A stretch of DNA of 64,000 nucleotides. It comes from Thermodesulfovibrio sp. 3462-1 (GTDB lineage: Bacteria > Nitrospirota > Thermodesulfovibrionia > Thermodesulfovibrionales > Thermodesulfovibrionaceae). Position 1 is the stretch's first letter, and each line of letters opens with the position of its first letter. Of this stretch, positions 39,469-52,462 are shown in pieces. The DNA is taken from the NCBI RefSeq assembly GCF_040451425.1, contig NZ_CP144374.1, positions 1,528,501 to 1,592,500 of the forward strand, read 5' to 3'. The translations under genes were made by a program, and so were the position numbers. The notes below the pieces were generated by a model that worked only from the letters and a program-made list of their open reading frames with translations, did no database searches and was not told the origin of the DNA.

Positions 39469-41076
39469 TCACTGCCATATTGTCTCTGCAAGTTTTTTAG
39501 CTTCTTCAATAAGATAATTTTTCTCTTCCAGATTCTTTGTTTCTACATATATGCGAATTTTTGGTTCTGTTCCTGATGGTCTTATCATAATCCATGATAG
39601 GTCATCAAAAACAATTTTAATACCATCAATGTCTGTTATGTTGAGAATCTTTTTCTTAAGCATTCCCGCTTTAAATAAATCACCAGCTTTATAGTAATCT
39701 TTCAATACATATACCCGCTTTTTTATGTGGGGACCGAACTTTTCCCGTGGTATCTCAATGCCCGTTCTGTCTGAATAATATCTCCCATAAGTGGATTCAA
39801 TCTCTTCAAGATAATCACTCATGTTTTTATGGAGCGTAGCCATCATCTCAAGGGCGAGCAAACAACCAAAAATAGCATCTTTTTCAAGGATATGATTCTG
39901 GACTGAAATACCGTCAGATTCTTCAAATGCTACAATGGCTTTTTTTGTTGCTTCTGGCAGAAGATATGGTCTAAAATTCTTAAATCCCACTTTTGTTTCA
40001 ATAACTTCAACACCTCGAGCTACTGCAATGGCATTTACAAAGTTACTTGTTCCAACACTTTTTACAACAACTCCACGCATCCCTTTGTAATTATAAAGAT
40101 AATGGAAAGCCATTGCACCAAAATAATTCATTGGAATCTGTCTTTTCAGGTCTGCAAAACGAACTCTATCTGCATCAGGATCGATGATAGCTGCAAATCC
40201 TAAAGAGTCTTTATTTAAATACGATAGGGCAAGCTTTAAATTAGTCTCGCTTGGCTCTGGAGAAAGACCTTCAAAGAGGGGGTCATCCTCTTTTCTTAAA
40301 CATACAAAAGTTCCTGGCTTTAATGAAAGAATTCTTGCCAGCTTGCCTCTACTTGTTCCATACATATGGTCAATTGCACATATAGGTTTTTCAGTTTCCA
40401 TGAAATTTTTAATTTTTTCCAGGTCTAACACAGCTGTCTTTTTAATAAATTTTATGTAAAGCTCTGTCAGGTCTATTTTTTCAATGTTTTTTGGTTTTAT
40501 GCTTTTTACATCCTGAGCTTTTTTCATTATTTCATTCGCAATAGCTTCAACTGGTTTTGTAAGCTCTTCTGGAGCTGGTCCTCCATCTGCAGGGTTTAAT
40601 TTCAGTCCTCCATAGTTTGCTGGATTATGACTTGGAGTAAGATTAACTGAAGCTGCTGCTTTAAGTTCAATTATTCCCGCTGAAAACTCTGGAGTTGCTG
40701 CTTCGCCTGCATAGTAACATTTAACTCCTTCTGATTGAAATAATCCTATTACTTCATAGGCAAATTCTTTTCCGAAAATTCTATTATCATGTCCAACGAT
40801 CACTCCTCTTTCTTTGAATTCATTGAAAGAGTTCACTCCCATAGCATTTAAAATCATGGAGTCCTCGCTTTTTACTGCCTCAATGATTGCTTTTGTTAGC
40901 ACTCTTACATTCTGCATTGTAAAATCAGAACCAATCTCTCCACGCCATCCAGATGTGCCAAAATGAATTTCCGTAGGCTCAGTATTTTCCTTTGCCAGTT
41001 TTTCTATATCTTTTAAAAGTTCTTTTTTTTGTTTTGGAGCTTTTAAAATTTCCTTCCAGAGCTCTGATGCCTTCAT
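39469..41076 (-). CDS. Phosphoglucomutase/phosphomannomutase family protein
   Basis: A 535-residue alpha-D-phosphohexomutase. The phosphoserine loop is TPSHNPANYGGLKLNP near residue 148, the metal loop IDPDADRVRFAD near residue 300, the sugar loop EESDGI near residue 403 and the phosphate loop RPSGTEPKIRIY near residue 508. A GGAGG ribosome site precedes the ATG. Substrate (glucose, mannose or glucosamine phosphate) is not decidable. Confidence 0.9.
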   Translation of the reverse strand: MKASELWKEILKAPKQKKELLKDIEKLAKENTEPTEIHFGTSGWRGEIGSDFTMQNVRVLTKAIIEAVKSEDSMILNAMGVNSFNEFKERGVIVGHDNRIFGKEFAYEVIGLFQSEGVKCYYAGEAATPEFSAGIIELKAAASVNLTPSHNPANYGGLKLNPADGGPAPEELTKPVEAIANEIMKKAQDVKSIKPKNIEKIDLTELYIKFIKKTAVLDLEKIKNFMETEKPICAIDHMYGTSRGKLARILSLKPGTFVCLRKEDDPLFEGLSPEPSETNLKLALSYLNKDSLGFAAIIDPDADRVRFADLKRQIPMNYFGAMAFHYLYNYKGMRGVVVKSVGTSNFVNAIAVARGVEVIETKVGFKNFRPYLLPEATKKAIVAFEESDGISVQNHILEKDAIFGCLLALEMMATLHKNMSDYLEEIESTYGRYYSDRTGIEIPREKFGPHIKKRVYVLKDYYKAGDLFKAGMLKKKILNITDIDGIKIVFDDLSWIMIRPSGTEPKIRIYVETKNLEEKNYLIEEAKKLAETIWQ

Positions 41077-41155
41077 AGGTATCCTCCAGATTTTTTTATT
41101 TCCATTATAAATTCAAAGACAGATTAAATGCAAAGAATCGAATTGCCTTATTTAA

Positions 41156-41344
41156 AATCTACTTGAAATACCATTCGTTACAGGTTCCTTTTCGCACCCA
41201 CAAGGGATGCAAGGACAACACGGTGTCGAGAAAAAGGTAAAAACTCCTTTTGAGAGAGTTCTTGAACGAAAGGATGTAGCAGAAGAAATAAAAGAGGAAT
41301 TAAATATGAATAGATTTTTATGTGAGGCAATAAGTCCCTTTTAA
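41156..41344 (+). pseudogene. Truncated reading frame abutting the degenerate CRISPR repeat
   Basis: Sixty-two open codons without a credible start read ...VTGSFSHPQGMQGQHG..., then TPFERVLERKDVAEEIKEEL and FLCEAISPF, ending at a TAA inside the truncated repeat. The amino-acid make-up is protein-like (amphipathic helix near the end), but I recognise no family. Best read as the 3' remnant of a foreign or deleted gene joined to the broken end of the CRISPR array. Confidence 0.35.
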
Positions 41345-41363
41345 ATGAGGTCAAGTTTCCTAC
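41335..41363 (-). repeat. Terminal, 3'-truncated CRISPR repeat
   Basis: Twenty-nine bases are identical to positions 8-36 (plus-strand view) of the 36-nt repeats at 42367-42552, from TCCC to TTTCCTAC. On the minus (crRNA) strand this is the repeat's 5' 29 nt with its 3' end, including the handle, lost. Loss at the 3' end is normal for the last repeat of an array. It lies 1,003 bp from the next repeat instead of the usual 38-40. Confidence 0.9.
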
Positions 41364-42094
41364 TTCTCATCAGAGACCTCTTTGATAAACCCACGGGTCT
41401 TTGGTCCAAACTCTTTTTCAAACCAAGCTTTTATTTCAGGCTCAAGCTTGATCTCTGAAAAAATGAAACTTGCAAAAATTGCAGATAAAAAAGGATATTC
41501 ATCAGAAATTTTAAAAGGATCAAGAGGAGCCTGCTCTTTACCACCTAAAGTTATACGATATTGGGTTATTGGCCAGTGTTTCTCAAGTGAAACAAATGGG
41601 CATCTAACAACAACTGTTTGATTAAACAGGTCGCCTTCACCTTCAAGAAAACACACTGGGGCAGTAGGAGGAACCTTTTTTACTAAGTCCGCCTGCTTTG
41701 GATTGCTAACTCTCCGAATGTTAAGTCCTTTTCCTAAGTAATGTAAAGCCCACGAATAACGTATTCCTTTTTCTTTTGAAGGATCGTAGATTACAAGTGT
41801 TAAGCCTGTTGTCTTTTTCACTTCGTCTAAGTCAAAAGCAGGCACAATGAAACATCCTAAAGCTGCCATTTGTTCTTCTTTTGCTCTTAGCTTGAAGAGA
41901 TCAACAAAAAGAGCTTTGTCCTTTTCAAGATCAAAAGTGGTTCTCCCTGCTATCTGTTGTCTCATGGCATCTCTCATTAGCACTATCTCCTTAAACAGGG
42001 CATTACAATTAGTTTGCTCTTCAGTAGCAAAAGCAGTACAGGTAAAACTAAACAGAACTGCTAATAAGCATACAATTTTTACCACTGATTTCAA
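41360..42094 (-). CDS. Exported hypothetical protein inside the CRISPR array interval
   Basis: A 244-residue protein starting at TTG with a strong AAAGGAGG site 9 nt upstream. Residues 1-23 are a clear signal peptide (VVKIVCLLAVLFSFTCTAFA). The mature part has three Cys and the phrases FIVPAFDLDEVKKTTGLTLV and CPFVSLEKHWPITQYRI; no family recognised. Its last codon and TAG stop are formed by the 5' end of the degenerate CRISPR repeat, so the natural C-terminus may be missing. It follows a dsbC-like fragment by 30 bp, suggesting a periplasmic redox or conjugation-linked role (inference). Confidence 0.7.
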   Translation of the reverse strand: MKSVVKIVCLLAVLFSFTCTAFATEEQTNCNALFKEIVLMRDAMRQQIAGRTTFDLEKDKALFVDLFKLRAKEEQMAALGCFIVPAFDLDEVKKTTGLTLVIYDPSKEKGIRYSWALHYLGKGLNIRRVSNPKQADLVKKVPPTAPVCFLEGEGDLFNQTVVVRCPFVSLEKHWPITQYRITLGGKEQAPLDPFKISDEYPFLSAIFASFIFSEIKLEPEIKAWFEKEFGPKTRGFIKEVSDEK

Positions 42095-42366
42095 CTGTTT
42101 TAACCTCCTTTCCTTAATTTTATGCTACTTTGACTCCTTTGATTGTAGTCCAGACAAAGCTTCCTGTATCCGAAGAATATCAGCTCCCTGGATAACTTTG
42201 CCTTCTATTATGAAGAATGGGGTGCCTCTAACTCCAAGATTTCTTGCTATTTCACTGCTTTTTTGAAGAATTTTGTCTACTTTGCTTTTACATTCCTGGG
42301 TAACCTTGATAGGTTTGGTATCAAGTTTTCCCGTGTAAGCATCATCCAGTGTCTTTGCTGGGTTTT
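41364..42366 (-). other. 1,003-bp gene-bearing interval between CRISPR repeats
   Basis: This segment fills the place of a spacer between the full repeat at 42367-42402 and the truncated terminal repeat at 41335-41363, both in the same direction. It starts inside a dsbC-like gene and ends inside or at the end of the exported-protein gene. No inverted terminal repeats, target-site duplication or transposase is visible. Transcription from the array promoter would read straight into it in the sense direction of both genes. Confidence 0.8.
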
Positions 42367-42373
42367 GTCGCAA
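42125..42373 (-). pseudogene. C-terminal fragment of a DsbC-like thiol:disulfide protein
   Basis: About 80 codons, the first ones lying in the CRISPR repeat. NPAKTLDDAYTGKL, a Cys in QECKSKVD, and NLGVRGTPFFIIEGKVIQGA match the last half of the DsbC/DsbG thioredoxin domain, including the cis-Pro GTP motif. The dimerisation domain and the CxxC active site, which should come before, are absent: the repeat replaces them. The only start is a TTG within the repeat. Not a working enzyme as it stands. Confidence 0.75.
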
Positions 42374-42552
42374 TCCCTTTTAAATGAGGTCAAGTTTCCT
42401 ACTTAAGTTAACAAAATTGATTCGGTTCCTCCTCCTCCACGAGTCGCAATCCCTTTTAAATGAGGTCAAGTTTCCTACGTAATTCTGGATCATGAGCATT
42501 TAGAAAATTCGTTCGGGTCGCAATCCCTTTTAAATGAGGTCAAGTTTCCTAT
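42367..42552 (-). CRISPR. Short CRISPR array: three 36-nt repeats, two spacers
   Basis: Full repeats at 42367-42402, 42443-42478 and 42517-42552, in plus-strand view GTCGCAATCC ... TTTCCTAC; the third has a single C-to-T change at its last base. Spacers are 40 nt (42403-42442) and 38 nt (42479-42516). The crRNA strand is inferred to be minus: repeats then end in ATTGCGAC, a typical 8-nt 5' handle, a promoter lies on that strand at 42618-42647, and the truncated repeat is at the far end. A type III-A csm operon lies upstream on the same strand. Confidence 0.95.
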
Positions 42553-42617
42553 TTTCAATATTTTCAGCTCTTGTTTAAATTTAATCCAGACTTGTCAAAG
42601 ACCAAAATTTTTTATAA

Positions 42618-42647
42618 ATTAAAGCACAAATTAATAAAAAAAGTCAA
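42618..42647 (-). promoter_or_regulatory. CRISPR leader promoter
   Basis: On the minus strand: -35 TTGACT (42642-42647), 18-nt spacer, extended -10 TGcTTTAAT (hexamer 42618-42623). Transcription should begin near 42611, about 59 nt before the first repeat. The surrounding 42553-42701 is A/T-rich as expected for a leader. The block closely resembles the promoter before the cas operon at 52491-52521. Confidence 0.65.
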
Positions 42648-42701
42648 TCTTTAGCATTATCGATAGGAGCTAAAACCATCTTTAACAACGAGAAAAGACA
42701 A

Positions 42702-42926
42702 TTATTTAGAATTGCTCATATAAATTCCATTCCTTCTGAGTCTCTTTTCCAATACCCACGAATGAAAGAGAGATTCATCTTTCAAATTTTTAAGTTGTTG
42801 TGGTGTCAGAACGCAATAAAAAACAGAGTATTGAAGATGTAGTCCCTTGCCTTTCATAAATCTGTATATTCTGGCAAGCCTTTTTTCGTCTGCAATGTCA
42901 TAACATACAAGATAAGCTGCTTTCAT
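42702..42926 (-). CDS. cas2: Cas2, short and divergent at the C-terminus
   Basis: A 74-residue Cas2. The N-terminal ferredoxin-like half is good: AAYLVCYDIADEKRLARIYR with the conserved Asp, then GLHLQYSVFYCVLTPQQLKN. The usual last strands (acidic DDV-IY type and a C-terminal Cas1-contacting tail) are replaced by EKRLRRNGIYMSNSK, and the protein is about 15-20 residues short. It overlaps the cas1 relic as ATGA. Integration partner activity is doubtful because the only Cas1 here is broken. Confidence 0.8.
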   Translation of the reverse strand: MKAAYLVCYDIADEKRLARIYRFMKGKGLHLQYSVFYCVLTPQQLKNLKDESLFHSWVLEKRLRRNGIYMSNSK

Positions 42927-43495
42927 TTTCTTAAATCCTTCATAATTTCAAAAAACTCATCAATAACAGTTTCAACTAATTGAGAAATATTTTGCCTTCT
43001 TGATTCAAATCTGTCAATAATGCTTTTTATGTTTTCATTTGAAAGTTCGTTATCTTCAATCTTTACACTATTAGAGTGGAAAAACTTTATTGTTTGAAAA
43101 TCTACTTCTGGTTCAAAAATCAATGAAAAATCAAGTAAAAAGCCAAAATTGACTCTCCGGTTGATTATTCCAAAATGAGGGTCTAATCCAGCATGAAGCA
43201 TTCTTCCTAAAAGTATCGCTCTAATAAAGTTTTCAATTATGTCATGGATAATGTTCCAATGCGGGTGAGCCTGAATAAACTTATTTATGACAAATTGATA
43301 ATTTCCTTCACCAATTTCATCGGGGATATTGAATCTCTGGAATATTTCTCTTAAAACTTGAATTTGCATCATGGTTCTTCTTGTCTGAAGCCATTTTTTA
43401 TATCTCCTTAGAGTTCCTATGCTGTATGATTTCAAAAAATATCTAATCTGTGCAAGCCTTCGTTCATCAGTGATGTCATAAGCAATGATAAAAAG
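42923..43495 (-). pseudogene. In-frame relic: Cas2 N-terminus joined to Cas1 C-terminus
   Basis: One open frame. Its first part (43412-43495) reads FIIAYDITDERRLAQIRYF then LKSYSIGT, a clear Cas2 N-terminus; no start codon exists upstream, only TAA at 43496-43498, though a TTG at 43435 could start a 170-residue product. The rest resembles the Cas1 C-terminal domain: LLGRMLHAGLDPHFGIINRR and FLLDFSLIFEPEVDF. The Cas1 N-terminal domain and catalytic Glu are gone, and the catalytic His (GFLH) is Asn (GIIN); only the Asp of LLDF remains. Almost surely unable to integrate spacers. Confidence 0.7.
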
Positions 43496-43681: not shown

Positions 43682-44584
43682 TTAAAGTTTTATTTGATGG
43701 TTAACTATTTCATATTTGCCTAAGCCAAAGCTCGTTCCTTTACCTACATGGAGAATTTCACAAGCTTTAAGAAATGGGATAAATGGAGTGATGTCTCCTT
43801 CATAGGTAATTTCTCCAACTACTCCACCAAGTTTCATTCTGGTGTCCTGCCTGCTTGAGTAACGCTCCCAGTCATACCAACGTGTGTTGTCATCTAATAT
43901 TTTGACTTTTTCTGCTTTTTCAATCAATGAGTTTACATCAACCTGTAAAGGTTCTTTTTTACAATGAAAATAATACAATAATGAAATTCTTCTTAGAATT
44001 GACCGAATAAGAACATGAAAATCAAGTTGATTGACAAGTGAACGATTATATTTTATCCTGATAGGAGTAAGAATATTTAAAGACAATTTTGTAAAATTTT
44101 GCTCTAAATTGACAGAATTTAATGATATTGTCTCTAAATTAGATGATGATATGTTGGAAATGATAAATTTTCCCTTAGCTTTACCAATGCCTACCTTGCC
44201 AAGTTCTTTAATTGTAACAACAAAGTATGGTAAATACTCTATTGCTTTTCCAATAAGGATTATTTTAAATTTAAATTCTTCTGCTGGCTGGTATAATTTT
44301 TTCTTGTTTAAGGGTGGTTCAAAGACAAAGGGATGAGGCACTTTTTCATATTTATGCATGTTTAAAAAATTTGCTGTAGTATCAGAAACAGTTTCAAAAA
44401 CATAGGCATAAATACACTTTGTTTTAATGGGGCAGTCTATACATTGCTGTCTTTTAAGAACGCATGTAATTTGTCTGAGAATATTTCCAAAACCTCCTCT
44501 AAAAGCAGAGCCTTTAAAATCTGGCAAATTTATTTCTGTCTCAGCTTTCAGTGTAAACTCAACAATTTTATAGTGTATCTGCAT
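43682..44584 (-). CDS. cas6: CRISPR endoribonuclease Cas6
   Basis: A 300-residue RAMP protein that cuts pre-crRNA within repeats. The N-terminal FKGSAFRGGFGNILRQITC and the Cys cluster CVLKRQQCIDCPIKTKCIYA are typical of the Cas6 (PF10040-type) group, and the C-terminus ends with the G-rich loop HVGKGTSFGLGKYEI. The catalytic His cannot be fixed from sequence alone. It overlaps csm5 by 17 bp and is the last interference-side gene before the adaptation relics. Confidence 0.85.
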   Translation of the reverse strand: MQIHYKIVEFTLKAETEINLPDFKGSAFRGGFGNILRQITCVLKRQQCIDCPIKTKCIYAYVFETVSDTTANFLNMHKYEKVPHPFVFEPPLNKKKLYQPAEEFKFKIILIGKAIEYLPYFVVTIKELGKVGIGKAKGKFIISNISSSNLETISLNSVNLEQNFTKLSLNILTPIRIKYNRSLVNQLDFHVLIRSILRRISLLYYFHCKKEPLQVDVNSLIEKAEKVKILDDNTRWYDWERYSSRQDTRMKLGGVVGEITYEGDITPFIPFLKACEILHVGKGTSFGLGKYEIVNHQIKL

Positions 44585-45668
44585 TTACTACCTCAAGCAT
44601 AACCCATCCAAAAGGTATTGCTTGACTAAGATTAGCTGGTTTTTTGTTCTGAGAGGCAAGCCAGATGGTTGTCGGTGTTTTATCCCATATTGAGCCTTTT
44701 GCTGTTCTTATCTTTATCTTTCTTACACTTTCTATTGTAACAGCCTCTGCACCTGAGTGTTTCCCGATGCGAATTAGAAAATATTTGATTTTTAATTCAT
44801 TTTTAAATTGCTCTATAAGAGGCCGTCTAAAACCTTTATTTTTTCTCAAATCAACTTCCCTATTAAAAATCTCGGCGTAATGGGCATGAACTTTGGTAAG
44901 AAGAGATTTAAAGTCAAAAGGCTTTTTTATATCAGAATTTTCTATCAAACTGTCTAATTTTACAGTGCCCTTAAATATACTTCCCTCAGGAATGACTTCT
45001 ATAGGAATAGAAAGGGTTGAACGAATGTTGTCTTTCAATTTGTTCACATTTATTTGATATATCACTTTTGTTTTTACTTGTCCTTCAGGTTCCAAATCTG
45101 AAATTTTTAAGAGTCTAAAAGGATCTGTTGACATTTGACCTTCAAGAATTTTCGCCTCCAGTTGCTCAGGATTCCTGGGATCTGCATTTTTTATTAAATT
45201 CTCTTTATCTGGAGACTCTGCAAGCGTTTTATCAAGATAGCCAGTTCTTAAAGAGCCTTTTAAAGAACTTCCAGGAATTATGGGAGTTTGTGTGTAGGGA
45301 TTGAAAAAAGTTCTTGGTATCTCAAACTCATTGAATTTTTTTAAAATTTCTTTTTCATCGTTCAGTTGCTTTACTTCTCTGTATCTTTCAGCTAATTCTT
45401 TAGGAATGGAAATAATTCGTCCTTTTACTTTTTCCTTAACTTTTGAATAAAATCTATACAATTGCACAAGACAGGCAACTGTGTCTTTTTCAGATATATT
45501 TTCAAATTCCTTCCATTCTTTATCATTAAGAGTTTTTATAAATTGCCATAAATCAAAATGAATCATTATGCTTTTGTCAACATCTATGACAAATTCTGTA
45601 GGAGTATAGCACTCATTACATCCAATGTGAACTGGACTTAAAATATGAAGCTTTATCTCATAAAGCAT
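44568..45668 (-). CDS. csm5: Type III-A Csm5 RAMP protein
   Basis: A 366-residue Cas7-like cap of the Csm complex, which holds the 3' part of the crRNA. LHILSPVHIGCNECYTPTEF at the start and PIIPGSSLKGSLRTGYLDK near residue 128 are the family motifs. Assigned as Csm5 by length, divergence from csm3 and position after csm4. Overlaps csm4 by 11 bp. Confidence 0.9.
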   Translation of the reverse strand: MLYEIKLHILSPVHIGCNECYTPTEFVIDVDKSIMIHFDLWQFIKTLNDKEWKEFENISEKDTVACLVQLYRFYSKVKEKVKGRIISIPKELAERYREVKQLNDEKEILKKFNEFEIPRTFFNPYTQTPIIPGSSLKGSLRTGYLDKTLAESPDKENLIKNADPRNPEQLEAKILEGQMSTDPFRLLKISDLEPEGQVKTKVIYQINVNKLKDNIRSTLSIPIEVIPEGSIFKGTVKLDSLIENSDIKKPFDFKSLLTKVHAHYAEIFNREVDLRKNKGFRRPLIEQFKNELKIKYFLIRIGKHSGAEAVTIESVRKIKIRTAKGSIWDKTPTTIWLASQNKKPANLSQAIPFGWVMLEVVNADTL

Positions 45669-46584
45669 CTTGCACCTCCACAGGTAAAACTAAGGAGTAT
45701 CCCTGTGTTACTGCTTCAGGGATAGCTTTTGAAAGATTCTGTATGCTCATTCCAATGTAAGGTTTTTTAATATCTTCGTTTGGAATTAATACTGCTGCTT
45801 CATCAGCAAATACAACAGGATTTTTAAATGGATTTTTTAATTTTGCAAAAATGCTTCCGAAACGACCAAATCTAATAAAAGGGGTGAAATAAATATCTTT
45901 TACTTCTTCTTTCTTTGGTACTGAAGGAGAAAGGGTATACAAAGCATTATAATTACCGGAGCTTGCCAAAAGTTGAATTTCTTTGATATCCTCTACTTCA
46001 AATTTACCATATCCAGCTGTTGCATCTTTGCCATACCCGTAATTTCCTACTCTTTTAAGTGCTTCTTTAAATGATTCAACTGCTATATCCTGTCTCAGCC
46101 CTATAAATATGGCAAGTTTTGTCTTGAAATAAATTTTATCAACTGTGTAAGGAGTAAATGGAGCTTCACCTGTTGTGCCTGTTAATCTGTTTATGGTGCA
46201 TCTTATTTGGCTGTCTTCTTCAATAAAATTTATCTTCTCGTATGTAATCTCATTCAGGGGCTTAAGGGGAATTTCAAAGGCAAAGTAATTTTTGCTTTTT
46301 AATTCCTTCCTCTTTTGTATGAATTCTTTCTCTGAAATTTTAAATAGCTTATACAATGGCATTGATGGACGTTTCAGATAAATTTTTTCCTTCACTACAG
46401 GAAAAGCTGAAGAAACAACAATAAAAGGATTTTCTTCATAGTCTTTAAGAAGCTCCTGAAGAGATTTACCAAAAAGTTGAGAATCCTCAAAGGCTTGCCA
46501 GCAAAGGTGTCCAAAAAGAGTATCTCCCTTTATAGGACTTCCAAAACCTGTCAAAGGCTTTATCTTTACAATATAGGTTTTCAA
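45658..46584 (-). CDS. csm4: Type III-A Csm4 RAMP protein
   Basis: A 308-residue Cas5-like subunit that binds the crRNA 5' handle and contacts Cas10. PLTGFGSPIKGDTLFGHLCW at the N-terminus and GYGKDATAGYGKFEVEDIKE in the middle are diagnostic; a C-terminal LSKAIPEAVTQGYSLVLPV closes it. Lies 2 bp after csm3. Confidence 0.92.
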   Translation of the reverse strand: MKTYIVKIKPLTGFGSPIKGDTLFGHLCWQAFEDSQLFGKSLQELLKDYEENPFIVVSSAFPVVKEKIYLKRPSMPLYKLFKISEKEFIQKRKELKSKNYFAFEIPLKPLNEITYEKINFIEEDSQIRCTINRLTGTTGEAPFTPYTVDKIYFKTKLAIFIGLRQDIAVESFKEALKRVGNYGYGKDATAGYGKFEVEDIKEIQLLASSGNYNALYTLSPSVPKKEEVKDIYFTPFIRFGRFGSIFAKLKNPFKNPVVFADEAAVLIPNEDIKKPYIGMSIQNLSKAIPEAVTQGYSLVLPVEVQDAL

Positions 46585-46586
46585 AG

Positions 46587-47321
46587 TTACCCCCAGAGCT
46601 TTAAAGAGTTGAATTTATTTTTTAAGGCTTCATCATCAAATTGAAACTCAATTTTTCCATATCCACGACTTCCAGAGCCTCCAAGAGAGTCAAGCTCAAG
46701 GAGTTTAAGTCCTTTTAATAAATAGTCTTCAAAAAGTTTTTCATCTTCATCATCCAGAACTTTAAAATATACTTCAAAGTCAAATACAGTTCCTGCTGGA
46801 ACTCTTTCAATAAATCTTGGATCCTTTGCTGTTCCTGTGATACGATTTATTCTGTTTTCAGATTTTACTTCAATATAGCTCCAATGATTTTGTTCAGCTT
46901 GTTTTTTGAAATCTTCATTTAATCTACAATCACTAAATGAGACTCTTGTTGGTCCAATTTCTATAATCAAGTTCTCATCAGTTTCTCCTGCACCTGCACC
47001 AAATACTTTTAGTATATTTTTGATGTGATTTTTTATCTCACCATCTGCATTTTTAAGCATCTTTGGAGTTGCCAGCCCACCTGAATTCTTAAAATCTTCT
47101 GATTTTGCTGCTTCTTGAACAATGCCATAGTAATACTCCAGAAGACTTCTTATTTTTCCTTTTAGAGATGAACCTGGAATATATGGCTCTTGTGTAAAGG
47201 GGTGTTTTATAACAGGGTTGTCTGTTCCACCTATTTGCATTTCCATGTTGCCTGAACCTATGTGCAATCCTGTTTTGATGATTATTTTACCTTTAATTGC
47301 TTTAATTTCTTTTAGTTTCAT
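46587..47321 (-). CDS. csm3: Type III-A Csm3 backbone RNase subunit
   Basis: A 244-residue Cas7-type subunit that forms the filament and cuts target RNA every 6 nt. TGLHIGSGNMEMQIGGTDNP then VIKHP holds the Asp expected to be catalytic, followed by YIPGSSLKGKIRSLLEYYYG. The RITGTAKDPRFIERVPAGT loop and a final LGGSGSRGYGKIEF are family features. So target-RNA cutting appears intact. Confidence 0.93.
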   Translation of the reverse strand: MKLKEIKAIKGKIIIKTGLHIGSGNMEMQIGGTDNPVIKHPFTQEPYIPGSSLKGKIRSLLEYYYGIVQEAAKSEDFKNSGGLATPKMLKNADGEIKNHIKNILKVFGAGAGETDENLIIEIGPTRVSFSDCRLNEDFKKQAEQNHWSYIEVKSENRINRITGTAKDPRFIERVPAGTVFDFEVYFKVLDDEDEKLFEDYLLKGLKLLELDSLGGSGSRGYGKIEFQFDDEALKNKFNSLKLWG

Positions 47322-47333
47322 CAGTTGCCTCCT

Positions 47334-47738
47334 TTATTTCATTTTTTCGTCATAATACCTGTAAAAACCCATAAAAGCTTCAAAAAACTTAACAAAGACA
47401 TCAAAATCTTTTTTACTCCGAATTTGATTTATACATTCCTTAAGAAACATTCTAAATTCTTCTGTAATAAGATTTCTGCCTTCAGCATAGTAGGCTTTTG
47501 CATTAAGAATTTTAATGTAGGGAAGCATTTTCTGAAATTCTTCATCATTTTTTATTCTTCCATGAAAAGTTAAAACTTCATCATAAAATTTCCTTAATTG
47601 AGAAATCTTGTTTTTATCTTTCTTTTTCTTACCACTTTCTTTTATGTCTTTTGCCCATTTATCAGCTATTTCAGAAAACAGCTCTGGATTTACAATTTCT
47701 CTGGCTTCATCTTCCCAGAATTTGATTTTGTTGTTCAT
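47334..47738 (-). CDS. csm2: Type III-A Csm2 small subunit
   Basis: A 134-residue all-helical protein. The ATG at 47738 has AAGGAGG 6 nt upstream and overlaps csm1, so it is preferred over an in-frame ATG ten codons earlier. ISQLRKFYDEVLTFHGRIKN and the C-terminal FVKFFEAFMGFYRYY match Csm2. It forms the inner filament of the complex. Confidence 0.88.
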   Translation of the reverse strand: MNNKIKFWEDEAREIVNPELFSEIADKWAKDIKESGKKKKDKNKISQLRKFYDEVLTFHGRIKNDEEFQKMLPYIKILNAKAYYAEGRNLITEEFRMFLKECINQIRSKKDFDVFVKFFEAFMGFYRYYDEKMK

Positions 47739-50314
47739 GCTTTCCTCCTTATATAAATTGTATGCCATAAAGGAATCCTAAAGGATTCCTTGTATGTCTC
47801 TATCCAGTTTGCAAGTTTGGATAAAATTTCTTCTGTAATTTTGATTCTTTCTTCTTTGTTTTTTCCCTTTCCAATATTTCTTATAGCAAAGTAATAGAGT
47901 TTAGCTCTCCAGGTTAAAGGATTCAGATTTTTGTGAATTGACTGCTCCTTCAGTATTTTTTCTGCTTCCTCTGCAAGCTCTCTAATTTCATTCAATTTAT
48001 ATATGAATGAATTGGTTATAATTTCCTTGCTAAGCCAGCTGTCTAATTCTTTTATAATCTCGTTAAATTCTTTTAATTTATTCCACTCCACTGGACAATT
48101 AAAGATTGTTATTCTGTTTTTCCCGCTGTATTTTGATTGCTCTAATGCCTTTTCTGAAATCTCAGCCATTGTCATCACAGAAGTTTCAGGCTTTGTAATA
48201 TATACTCCAGCTGAAAGCGTAATTTCGCTGTTTTCACAGCAGTATTTGTAAAAATCTTCAGAAATTCTCATAGAAAATCTGATTATTTCCTTCCATGGAG
48301 CAATAAGAAAAAGATCATCTCCACCTGCAAAAATTGTGTATATATTTTTAAACTCTGTTTTACATAGATAAGGCAAATAAAGAGTAAAAAAGAGATTAAG
48401 TTGCCGTGAAAGTGTGGCATATCTTGAAAAGGTTCTTTTCTCTGGTCTTAATCCTTTTGCAAATATTGTTCCAAGATTATCAATGTCTGCTTTGAAAACG
48501 CCAAGAGCATCAACTCCAGCAAATCCAGAGGGAGTCTCCTGCAATGAGAGTTTTGCAATATGATGAAAGCTAAGAATTGATTGTTTCTGAATAGCTTCCC
48601 TTGTTTCCTTGTTATCTTGCTCTGAGTCTTTATAAGTAAGTTTCTCAATCTCTTTTTCATACTCCGGTGTAAATTTTGGAACATAGCCATTTATCAGTTT
48701 GATCGAAGCAAAATTTTCAAGGATGCTACTGTCTTTCCAGAGAGAGTTAATATTCCAATAATGAACTATTTTATTTTGTCTTAAAAGTTCTGAAAGTTTA
48801 CCTGATACAAAGCTTACCTGATATTTATCAAAAATTGGCACCTTAAGTTTTTCAGGAAGCGCTGCATCAGCTGTAGCTATTGTAACAATATCTTTTTTAA
48901 CAAGATTTTCGCCAATTTTTACATGATCGTAACAAATATCACAGAGGTATTCTTCTTTTATTTTATTTTCATGATTTGCTGCTCTACGATTGCAAAGAGG
49001 GCATACCCCAGCATCTGAAAATTTATCAAGATATTTCTCTGTATATTTTGTTCCTCCGTATTGGATAAGATCTATTTTCTTGTATTTGCGTTCCTCTGAA
49101 GCTCTGCCTATCTCCCTTAAAAGTTTTTCAAGACTGTCTTTACTGCAAATAAAATCCTCTGGTGATGCTTCCACCCAGCTAAAACCAATACTTACCTCTC
49201 CATAAAAGTTTTCCATAAGCCAATGATTTATTTCATACTCTGTTGATTTTAATGCATCAATATGTTTTTTCGTGTTTGGAGCCAGAATTTTAAATTTTCC
49301 TGCTGCATTTGTAACAACTGATGTAAAAGGTAACCCGAGTCTGTCAAGTAAAAAATCTGCAGCAAGCTCACTGAGTAAAGAAACATAAAAGGATCTGCCT
49401 CTCAGCATTTTGGCTGCATATTTAGCTGTAGAACCACCTTCTGAAAATATAAAATCCTGAATGCCGTAAAAATTTCCTTCAATTAAAAGAAACTTCTTTT
49501 CATCCGTCTTTTCTATTGAATTTTTATCCATTGAATCTGTTAACAGATGATAAAGATACATTGAAACAGCAAATGCAGAGGTAAGTCTGCCATGGTCATA
49601 AAGAGAAATGTCTGATATAATTTCCTCAAATCTACCATCAGAGTGTTTTAGTGTTGCCGATGGGATTGAAGTGGTAAAAACAAAAAGTAATGAATCAAAA
49701 TGTTCCATCCAGAGTTTAAGACATTCTTTATGAGGAAGACTTTTAAAGACTTGAATAAATTTTTGATAAAGCTCACCATAAGCCAGTTGCTGAGAATCCT
49801 GCTTTTTTACAGGAAAGATGTTTAATGGAGAAATTTCTTTCAGAGGATAGGAAAAAATAAAGTTTTCAGGTTTATTTTCCTTCCATTTTTCAGCAACTGA
49901 TATATCTTCAAGTATCGGGAATAATGGAATTTCCTTTGCTTTTTTTGCAATCCATTTTTCTTCTTCAAATTCTTTTCTTTCAACTCCGCTGCTAAGGCAA
50001 TCTGCTTCATGAATTATTAGTTGTTCAGGAGAGTCAGAGTCTGGTTTGTGATGTTTTGCAGCAAGATTTATAAAAGAATCCCTTGAAGAGGCATATTCTG
50101 TAATTTCTCGAGGAAAATATTTAACCATTTCATCAATAAAGTAAGCTGTGTAAAGGGCATGTTTGTGAGTGTATTGCCAATTAGTTTTTGGTTGATACAG
50201 GGATTGATTGCCATCTATGTATTCAGATGGGATATCTATTCCAGCTCTTTCCATAAATTTTCCAATATCATGAAGAAGTCCTGCCAATGCAATTTTTAAA
50301 ACTTTAATATCCAT
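47735..50314 (-). CDS. csm1: Cas10/Csm1, type III-A signature subunit
   Basis: An 859-residue protein. The N-terminal HD nuclease domain has AGLLHDIGKFMERAG and AAKHHKPDS. A zinc finger has Cys pairs CPLC and CDIC near residues 430-455. The cyclase palm has GVFKADIDNLGTIFAKGL and FAGGDDLFLIAPW near residue 660, the intact GGDD motif. Both DNA cleavage and cyclic oligoadenylate synthesis are therefore expected. A GGGAG ribosome site and a separate promoter-like element (50371-50398) precede it. Confidence 0.96.
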   Translation of the reverse strand: MDIKVLKIALAGLLHDIGKFMERAGIDIPSEYIDGNQSLYQPKTNWQYTHKHALYTAYFIDEMVKYFPREITEYASSRDSFINLAAKHHKPDSDSPEQLIIHEADCLSSGVERKEFEEEKWIAKKAKEIPLFPILEDISVAEKWKENKPENFIFSYPLKEISPLNIFPVKKQDSQQLAYGELYQKFIQVFKSLPHKECLKLWMEHFDSLLFVFTTSIPSATLKHSDGRFEEIISDISLYDHGRLTSAFAVSMYLYHLLTDSMDKNSIEKTDEKKFLLIEGNFYGIQDFIFSEGGSTAKYAAKMLRGRSFYVSLLSELAADFLLDRLGLPFTSVVTNAAGKFKILAPNTKKHIDALKSTEYEINHWLMENFYGEVSIGFSWVEASPEDFICSKDSLEKLLREIGRASEERKYKKIDLIQYGGTKYTEKYLDKFSDAGVCPLCNRRAANHENKIKEEYLCDICYDHVKIGENLVKKDIVTIATADAALPEKLKVPIFDKYQVSFVSGKLSELLRQNKIVHYWNINSLWKDSSILENFASIKLINGYVPKFTPEYEKEIEKLTYKDSEQDNKETREAIQKQSILSFHHIAKLSLQETPSGFAGVDALGVFKADIDNLGTIFAKGLRPEKRTFSRYATLSRQLNLFFTLYLPYLCKTEFKNIYTIFAGGDDLFLIAPWKEIIRFSMRISEDFYKYCCENSEITLSAGVYITKPETSVMTMAEISEKALEQSKYSGKNRITIFNCPVEWNKLKEFNEIIKELDSWLSKEIITNSFIYKLNEIRELAEEAEKILKEQSIHKNLNPLTWRAKLYYFAIRNIGKGKNKEERIKITEEILSKLANWIETYKESFRIPLWHTIYIRRKA

Positions 50315-50370
50315 TTTTCAGTCTCCCTTCATGATTTATTATTATTTTAATTTTATTTAAAAATTGTTAA

Positions 50371-50398
50371 ATTATACTAAAAAACAATGTTGCTGCAA
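50371..50398 (-). promoter_or_regulatory. Putative internal promoter before csm1
   Basis: On the minus strand: -35 TTGCAG (50393-50398), 16-nt spacer, -10 TATAAT (50371-50376), about 55 nt before the csm1 ATG, in the 88-bp gap after the CARF gene. Confidence 0.45.
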
Positions 50399-50402
50399 TA
50401 TT

Positions 50403-51536
50403 TCAATTGATTTTTATTTTTGTTTTGTCAACGGCAATTCCATAGATTGTTGCACCATATTTTCTGACAGACTTAATTTTACATGGTGTAGCCTCATCAT
50501 TTAATGCCTTAGAGATTTCTCTATTTATCTTACTTATGTAAGTTCTTAAGGTATAGAGATTCAGTTTCTTTTTGACATACTCTATTATTTCCTCTTCTGC
50601 AATGTTTAAAGGATTATAAGTTTTTGAATAAAATTTGGCAAACTCTTTTGCAAAAGGCTCCTCAGTAATCTGCCCTAAGGATACATAGCAATCAGTGCAA
50701 CTACCGCAAAGAGCATCCTTTGGACATAAAATTTTCTGTTGTAAAAATGTGGCATAAAGAGTAATTAAAATAGGACTCATGGTAAATGAAACTCCAGCAA
50801 TTTCAATTTTTCTATCTTTTATATAAAGGATTATCTCAGGTTGAGTGAGGACAAGATCAATTTCTGATTGAGTCTCTTGTATAAGTTCTTTAAAGTTTTT
50901 TCCATGAAGCTGAATTTTTCCTGAAAATTTTATAAAAGGAAGTTCCATAATTTCAATTTTTGCTTTTTCTGTGCTTATTTCTTGCACTGTTCCATTAGCA
51001 AGCCTGCATTTTATAAATCTTTCCTGTTTTGGTTTATAGAAAAACTCAGGGTGTGATTCAAATTCAGGGCTTACCAAAACATGATAGAGTTTATCCCAGC
51101 TTCTACCAAAAAGTTGAAGTGCAGAGCCAAGATAAAAACTCATTGTTTTTCTTCCACCTGCAAGACAGCAGTGAAGCCTTACTGAATTATCTGTTGTAAG
51201 TTCTCTTATTAAAGAGATAATTGTATCCGCTGTTGCCTCACTCTGGGAAGAATCTCTTATGTCATCAATTTCATTGCCATCTTTATCTTTTATTACAATA
51301 ATTGAGGAAGGCTTTATCTCAATTTGAGGAAGGTCATATTCAGTGAGAAACTGTTTTAGAATTCCTTTTTCAATCAATGCATTTTCAATCTGCTTTTTTC
51401 CTGTTGATGTGGTAATTATATACATTTCCTCAATGTTTACTGGCGGAGTGCTTTGTGATAAAGCATAAAGAGTCTCTGTAATAATTTGAGGAATTCCACC
51501 TATAACACAAACAAGGATTTCTTTAAATTTTTCCAT
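50403..51536 (-). CDS. CARF protein of the Cas_NE0113 family (Csm6-labelled ring-nuclease type)
   Basis: A 377-residue type III accessory protein. The N-terminal CARF domain has LVCVIGGIPQIITETLYALS, then CCLAGGRKTMSFYLGSALQL and LFGRSWDKLYHVLVSPEFES, the Cas_NE0113 pattern. A Cys cluster (CPKDALCGSCTDC) near residue 285 and a helical C-terminus (LYTLRTYISKINREISKAL) follow. No HEPN-type Rx4-6H outside the CARF domain is seen, so it may bind or degrade cyclic oligoadenylate rather than act as an RNase. Confidence 0.78.
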   Translation of the reverse strand: MEKFKEILVCVIGGIPQIITETLYALSQSTPPVNIEEMYIITTSTGKKQIENALIEKGILKQFLTEYDLPQIEIKPSSIIVIKDKDGNEIDDIRDSSQSEATADTIISLIRELTTDNSVRLHCCLAGGRKTMSFYLGSALQLFGRSWDKLYHVLVSPEFESHPEFFYKPKQERFIKCRLANGTVQEISTEKAKIEIMELPFIKFSGKIQLHGKNFKELIQETQSEIDLVLTQPEIILYIKDRKIEIAGVSFTMSPILITLYATFLQQKILCPKDALCGSCTDCYVSLGQITEEPFAKEFAKFYSKTYNPLNIAEEEIIEYVKKKLNLYTLRTYISKINREISKALNDEATPCKIKSVRKYGATIYGIAVDKTKIKIN

Positions 51537-51649
51537 ATTTTAAAAATATTTTTTTAATGAAATTTCTTCCGTGAAAATCGCCTTCTCCAGGTAAAAATTC
51601 GGAATATTTAACATAGTTTTTCCGCAACATTCTTAAAATTTTTAATAAA

Positions 51650-52462
51650 TCATGATTGTTCATGAATAAATAAAAGTCCTTTATTAGTTATCCACAGAGT
51701 CTTTTGGAACTCATCAGGGAGTCTTCCAATTAGGCCGTAAATTTCAAGTCTTTCAATTTCTTCAGAGTATTCCTTTTCTAAGATTTCATACTCTTCATAT
51801 CGAACAACTCTTTTACTGGATAATTTTTTGAGAAGTTCCAGCTCCTTTCCTTTTGGAATATAAAATAGTTTTGGTAAAAATACTACTTCATGAAACTCTT
51901 CATTCATGTAATAGATTTCACAATCCGTAATAATTCCTACAAGAGCAGTAGCAATTACATGAGCCTTTAGTCCACCTGTGGGGTTGAAAAATACTTTATA
52001 GTTTTCTTTCTGTTTTTTCTTCGCAATATAAATTAATCTGTCAACAAGCTCTGATATACCAAGTTTAAATCTGTCAAGAGCATAGGATGGATCATAGTAT
52101 TTTGCTTCCCAGAAGTATCCACTTATTTCATAGGGAGTATAAATTGAATATCCTGAGTCTTTTAAAAATTTTTCAATTGCAACCCTGCAAAGTTCATTTG
52201 ATGCTGTCTTTGTGCCAAATAAATAAACTTCTATGAGCTCCTTCGGTTTACCTTGCGTAATTCTTAAAAATGTATTCATTTCTGCAGAATGCTTATAAGG
52301 CGCGCTTTTAAGAAACTCTACAAGGCGGTTAATTTCCTGAGGATTCTCAAGCAAACTCCTCCAGTAATCTTCTTCAGAAGTTTTTCTTTCAGGAAAAACT
52401 CCAGCCTTTTGAGCATTTGTTAAAAGAGAATTGCCTGTGCTTATGATGTGAAACTCTTTCAA
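51650..52462 (-). CDS. CARF protein of the APE2256 / TIGR02619 family
   Basis: A 270-residue type III accessory protein with a TTG start and a GGAGG site upstream. FHIISTGNSLLTN at the N-terminus and FFNPTGGLKAHVIATALVGI near residue 160 are the CARF ligand-binding motifs of this family. The C-terminal 70 residues look like a winged helix (ILEKEYSEEIERLEIYGLIG). No HEPN RNase motif is visible. Could be a ring nuclease or a cyclic-oligoadenylate-sensing regulator. First gene of the cas operon. Confidence 0.78.
   Translation of the reverse strand: MKEFHIISTGNSLLTNAQKAGVFPERKTSEEDYWRSLLENPQEINRLVEFLKSAPYKHSAEMNTFLRITQGKPKELIEVYLFGTKTASNELCRVAIEKFLKDSGYSIYTPYEISGYFWEAKYYDPSYALDRFKLGISELVDRLIYIAKKKQKENYKVFFNPTGGLKAHVIATALVGIITDCEIYYMNEEFHEVVFLPKLFYIPKGKELELLKKLSSKRVVRYEEYEILEKEYSEEIERLEIYGLIGRLPDEFQKTLWITNKGLLFIHEQS

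Follow-up and report, generated by a model that had tools for sequence, protein, structure and literature searches.

Foreign DNA is known to enter CRISPR loci in several ways. During Cas1-Cas2 spacer acquisition it is placed between repeats of the same orientation whose facing edges are whole, and integration normally takes place at the leader-proximal end of the array. At the opposite, leader-distal end, arrays degenerate, so that the terminal repeat is clipped and insertions collect there (PMC4869251, PMC8047081). Insertion sequences also place mobile-type elements at CRISPR loci, as described for cas genes (PMC10359306), and recombination between a spacer and its target, a form of array-mobile element recombination, can move CRISPR-adjacent DNA (Varble et al. 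2019, as cited in PMC8616872).

We analyzed a 64,000-nucleotide stretch of the Thermodesulfovibrio sp. 3462-1 genome (the window) whose CRISPR array resembles each of these systems and departs from each of them. Two of its repeats enclose an interval that, like an acquired spacer, lies between whole facing edges, but it is 1,003 bp long rather than 30-43, sits at the leader-distal end and accompanies adaptation genes that are now broken. Its clipped terminal repeat and its position recall a degenerating array end, whereas the interval itself is gene-length foreign DNA in which the repeat edge truncates a dsbC-like disulfide-bond gene, and related species carry different genes at the same place. 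It also differs from an insertion sequence or transposon in lacking a transposase, terminal inverted repeats and any target duplication, and the MITE-like element at the locus lies outside it. Spacer-target recombination predicts joints inside a spacer, whereas the joint that can be tested here is a repeat edge. Within the literature that we searched, we found no description of gene-length inserts between CRISPR repeats, a result that reflects the limit of the searches and is not proof of absence.

The window array contains four copies of a 36-nt repeat, GTCGCAATCCCTTTTAAATGAGGTCAAGTTTCCTAC, in one shared orientation (Table 1). The earlier note on this DNA had described two same-orientation repeats 1,003 bp apart, ordinary spacers of 38 and 40 nt, an interval that begins inside a dsbC-like gene, and a repeat that supplies the stop codon of a gene for an exported protein; we reproduced all four points, and the observation stands as genuine and beyond chance. 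Nearly all spacers of this system measure 30-43 nt, and the interval is about 26 times as long as a spacer. Both the identity of the sequence beyond position 42553 with the leader of a second array and the cas genes farther out place the leader on that side, which makes the interval leader-distal today. The clipped repeat has had 7 nt replaced at its far edge. Because the best match to the repeat inside the interval (18/36) is no better than the shuffled expectation (about 18.5), the interval is not a series of decayed repeats, and we ruled out hidden degenerate copies. At the DNA level it is single-copy in the genome and has no relative in 60 other genomes.

Table 1. Features of the window array and its surroundings (positions are those of the window, except in the first row, which gives contig positions).
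Feature	Position	Strand	Remarks
Window	1,528,501-1,592,500		single 1.82-Mb contig
pgm-like gene	39469-41076	-	array's new neighbor since the inversion
MITE-like dispersed element, ~197 bp	41138-41334		imperfect terminal inverted repeats; apparently intact copy
CRISPR repeat, clipped, 29/36 nt	41335-41363	+	distal edge of interval
Exported-protein ORF, 244 aa	41360-42094	-	stop codon from clipped repeat
Oversized interval, 1,003 bp	41364-42366		between two same-orientation repeats
dsbC-like gene, 3' half	42125-42373	-	cut at repeat edge; foreign homology stops at 42366
CRISPR repeat, whole, 36 nt	42367-42402	+	leader-side edge of interval
Spacer, 40 nt	42403-42442		
CRISPR repeat, whole	42443-42478	+	
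Spacer, 38 nt	42479-42516		
CRISPR repeat, leader-proximal	42517-42552	+	final base variant
Leader	42553-42649	-	97.9% identity over 96 nt with second array's leader
Second cas2	42720-42926	-	C-terminal part lost (comparison with intact G012 copy)
Diverged second cas1, C-terminal remnant	42923-43435	-	78% identity to G012 gene over 163 aa
First cas2, N-terminal remnant	43436-43495	-	fused to cas1 remnant (comparison with G012)
Type III-A effector genes cas6, csm5, csm4, csm3, csm2, cas10 and two CARF genes (Csx1-like, Csm6-like)	43682-52462	-	

The second array of the same repeat family lies at 327.5-329.8 kb and has 32 recognizable repeats. One of its spacers (L009 6675-6712) and the 40-nt spacer of the window array have 26 of 27 nt in common when offset by 5, before the two diverge, so both probably derive from related targets; no plasmid match to either window spacer was found. 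The second array has an irregularity of its own, a 106-bp interval (L009 6822-6927, genome ~328,821-328,926) composed of a 38-nt spacer, a mangled 36-nt repeat of which only GTCGCAATC is kept, and a 32-nt spacer, with a 31-nt stretch present in two copies. Elsewhere, a lone CRISPR repeat with a few substitutions lies in an intergenic region with no array attached (L010 4681-4716, genome ~1,290,680).

On the minus strand, the interval reads as the dsbC piece, a gap of 30 bp and the 244-aa ORF, and both genes are co-oriented with the array, whose direction of transcription we take from the leader. In protein alignments with full-length relatives, the first aligned codon of the dsbC piece directly follows the conserved CS/CA and spans the repeat edge: the repeat contributes one of its bases and the interval the other two. 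Foreign homology therefore comes within 2 nt of the repeat. The proposal that both joints coincide with repeat ends thus holds by homology on the dsbC side, while the exported-protein side is without relatives to compare. The 244-aa ORF has a signal-peptide-like start and a plausible ribosome-binding site, and we found no convincing relatives of its product among 149 relatives, 396 genomes of the phylum, plasmids, genome contigs and viral contigs. We treated its weak matches, several of which align with FliP proteins, as chance, and a fold prediction from the single sequence was uninformative (pLDDT 38). Promoter-like sites are not commoner across the stretch than in shuffles. None of 192 spacers matches the interval, and an inverted match between the interval and a neighboring spacer was one among many pairs at chance level. 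Nothing that we found indicates a function for the interval, or a part as a guide, and we regard it as a passenger.

Where did this DNA come from? Within the genus, G001 and G012 are the only other genomes with relatives of the dsbC piece, and also the only two with F-type TraC. In both, dsbC adjoins genes for a signal peptidase, TraF and TraC in F-type conjugation loci. Plasmid matches came only from Candidatus Manganitrophus, in two records, and in the record that we inspected the match lies within a TraF-TraH-TraN cluster. More distant dsbC relatives are also found away from conjugation genes (in G076, for example); F-type TraC was not found in this genome, and the fragment itself has no tra genes. 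The confinement of dsbC relatives in the genus to F-type conjugation loci makes a mobile element the likely source, and by homology the interval probably derives from the transfer region of a conjugative element. Searches at the DNA level (61 genomes) and the protein level (149 and 396 genomes), together with plasmids, genome contigs and viral contigs, found no donor with both genes, so that the intact dsbC and exported-protein pair which had been suggested as a search target did not turn up in plasmids or related genomes. An intact dsbC at this site in relatives lacking CRISPR, which would have spoken against capture, was not found either: in the relatives examined the upstream neighbors of pgm differ, and none has dsbC beside it.

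The array adjoins the genes of a type III-A system, namely cas10/csm1, csm2-csm5 and cas6. Intact cas1 and cas2, common in type III-A although not obligatory, are reduced to remnants by comparison with G012, the closest relative, and the canonical cas1 is deleted. G012 carries an intact order of cas2, cas1, a second diverged cas1 and cas2 from cas6 to the array, indicating that the window locus once had an adaptation module. Judged by these gene remains, adaptation from the III-A module of the window is broken. The sole Cas1 detected in the genome by a Pfam search is at 593 kb, in a different cas neighborhood. In G012, the second, diverged Cas1 (L135 10352-11149) adjoins the canonical one; its GFxH motif reads GIIN, without the histidine, and its PADLOC match is 'Cas1, diverged variant, second in the loci'.

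Comparison with G012 also revealed a large rearrangement. There, the orthologous array lies between a radical-SAM-type gene, which we take to be DUF512, and the cas genes, and pgm and a lon-like gene, 102 kb from the array, are oriented divergently. Here, pgm adjoins the array and the lon-like gene adjoins the DUF512 gene. Collinearity blocks show the intervening segment, ~102 kb in G012 and 130 kb here, to be inverted, with further rearrangement inside it. One breakpoint is the array end, at the clipped repeat, and the other is the gap between pgm and lon, placed within ~30 bp. Since G014 also has the pgm-lon adjacency, we take this genome as the derived state. A lone repeat with two substitutions at 1,700,055, between DUF512 and lon and ~130 kb from the array, is probably the original terminal repeat. 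A search for ABC transporters as an aid to synteny was too noisy to inform.

A MITE-like element, outside the interval, ends at 41334 directly on the clipped repeat. About 10 more copies, complete or partial and 90-98% identical, are present in the genome. As a short dispersed sequence with terminal inverted repeats, the element resembles a MITE; no target duplication was seen. In some copies, 12 nt of the element's ends (CCTCATTTAAAA) also occur in the CRISPR repeat. The claim of the earlier note that transposase, inverted repeats and target duplication are absent is thus right for the interval, but the locus is touched by this element. Its proposal that a large piece of DNA was captured at a repeat is still the best reading, given the dsbC edge at the repeat edge, but it was incomplete: it missed the MITE-like element, the inversion, the loss of adaptation genes and the recurrence in related species, and this context turns a unique capture into a case of a trailing-end relic.

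To define that recurrence, we surveyed 16 arrays or array ends of the same repeat family in the genus and called intervals above 60 bp oversized. The leader-distal-most interval was oversized in 7 of the 16 arrays, compared to 1 of 185 other intervals (Fisher p ~4e-8, a guide only, since we compared related arrays, contig ends truncate some of them and the cut-off was set post hoc). The seven measure 101, 187, 334, 345, 432, 513 and 1,003 bp. At G014 L138 (3450-3962), a 513-bp interval encoding HicB-like and ASCH proteins lies between two whole repeats, and the oversized interval of G011 L066, 334 bp long, holds a single small uncharacterized gene, whose stop codon the repeat supplies, and is likewise faced by whole repeats. 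By contrast, G008 L141 carries a gene for a 23S-rRNA-intervening-sequence protein with inverted repeats that breaks its repeat, and G010 has a 75% identical relative beside a clipped repeat. The oversized interval of G009 L052 contains a short element with inverted repeats, and those of G014 L137 and L139 contain REP-like sequence. These cargoes therefore divide into insertions that break the repeat, as inverted-repeat elements have done to the distal repeat in G008, G009 and G010, and inserts whose facing repeat edges are whole; the window interval falls in the latter class. Different oversized inserts at the same array position in related species look like a recurrent accident rather than normal spacers.

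Two features of the G014 arrays are described here in their own right. The HicB-like and ASCH genes are a possible toxin-antitoxin-like pair with a near-consensus promoter. In L137, L138 and L139, one and the same REP-like sequence, ending in GCTCAACAyTrAAr, directly precedes a CRISPR repeat in several places, as if the two were fused into one dispersed unit.

What joined the 1,003 bp to the array? Our leading reading, to which we give a probability of about 40%, is that an over-long foreign fragment was integrated at repeat edges by Cas1-Cas2 and later overtaken by decay and inversion. From the features above, we infer the following course. About 1 kb of foreign DNA, probably from a conjugative transfer region, would have been joined to repeat edges of the type III-A array, most likely because Cas1-Cas2, encoded by adaptation genes that were still intact, made an aberrant, over-long integration product. 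The interval may then have been retained at the leader-distal end, as the region least often deleted by recombination between repeats. Afterwards, the adaptation genes would have been broken, the array would have shrunk to two ordinary spacers, and an inversion of ~100-130 kb with a breakpoint at the array end would have put the interval beside pgm, where the MITE-like element lies against the clipped repeat at the new joint.

Integration fits the dsbC cut at the repeat edge, the whole facing edges, the single orientation and the likely mobile source, and the distal intervals of G014 and G011, where whole repeats enclose other genes, also speak for it. Against it stand the absence of a donor with both genes from our searches, the fact that homology speaks to only one of the two joints, and the REP-like and inverted-repeat elements that explain several of the other oversized intervals. 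All seven oversized intervals are distal, whereas new spacers normally enter beside the leader, so integration needs a survival bias. Arrays are stable at their trailer end (PMC8047081), and survival could thus explain the distal location of the interval. The Cas1-Cas2 length ruler also counts against integration of 1,003 bp (PMC13034035).

A serious contender is recombination between repeats, in which a repeat-bearing molecule or stray repeat crossed with the array and the DNA next to the second repeat was trapped; the inversion itself may have arisen in this way, with the array crossing over with a stray repeat close to pgm. This would put the joints at repeat edges automatically. Duplicated spacer blocks in several arrays indicate that such recombination is active, a lone repeat is present at each relevant genome location, the inversion breakpoint falls at a repeat, and large inversions in Thermotogales have been reported with CRISPR (DeBoy 2006, as cited in PMC5637354). 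However, it requires a donor with a repeat inside dsbC, and none was found in our searches. We lean slightly toward Cas1-Cas2 integration over recombination between repeats, with decay of the trailing end as the main remaining alternative.

Such decay, in which foreign or mobile DNA inserted non-specifically into the last spacer, would make the edge precision partly a coincidence, and we consider it unlikely. Although the leader-distal end is known to collect insertions and deletions (PMC4869251), inverted-repeat elements broke distal repeats in three relatives and the MITE-like element abuts the clipped repeat here, no spacer remnant separates the repeat edge from the dsbC cut, which is at most 2 nt away, and the interval has neither terminal inverted repeats nor a transposase. 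A misjoin at the 36-nt repeat or the ~197-bp element, conceivable because both joints lie at repeated sequence, is a highly improbable source of the interval or the inversion, as the genome is one contig and 99.98% complete, the interval is single-copy, the joints at the two ends of the inversion agree with each other, and independently assembled genomes also show oversized distal intervals.

If the joints were made by the integrase, as Cas1-Cas2 integration holds, CRISPR adaptation can overrun its length ruler more than tenfold, and arrays can serve as sites of gene capture. A stronger version, in which the III-A module of this genus, when intact and with its second, diverged Cas1 beside the canonical one, can integrate gene-length foreign fragments between repeats and arrays gather small gene cargoes at their old ends (the dsbC piece with the exported protein, HicB-like with ASCH, and others), seems doubtful to us. 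Even if the joints are recombination scars, the genus provides a natural set of cases in which foreign genes enter array ends, and these cases also show, in a testable form, array ends that coincide with the breakpoints of chromosomal inversions.
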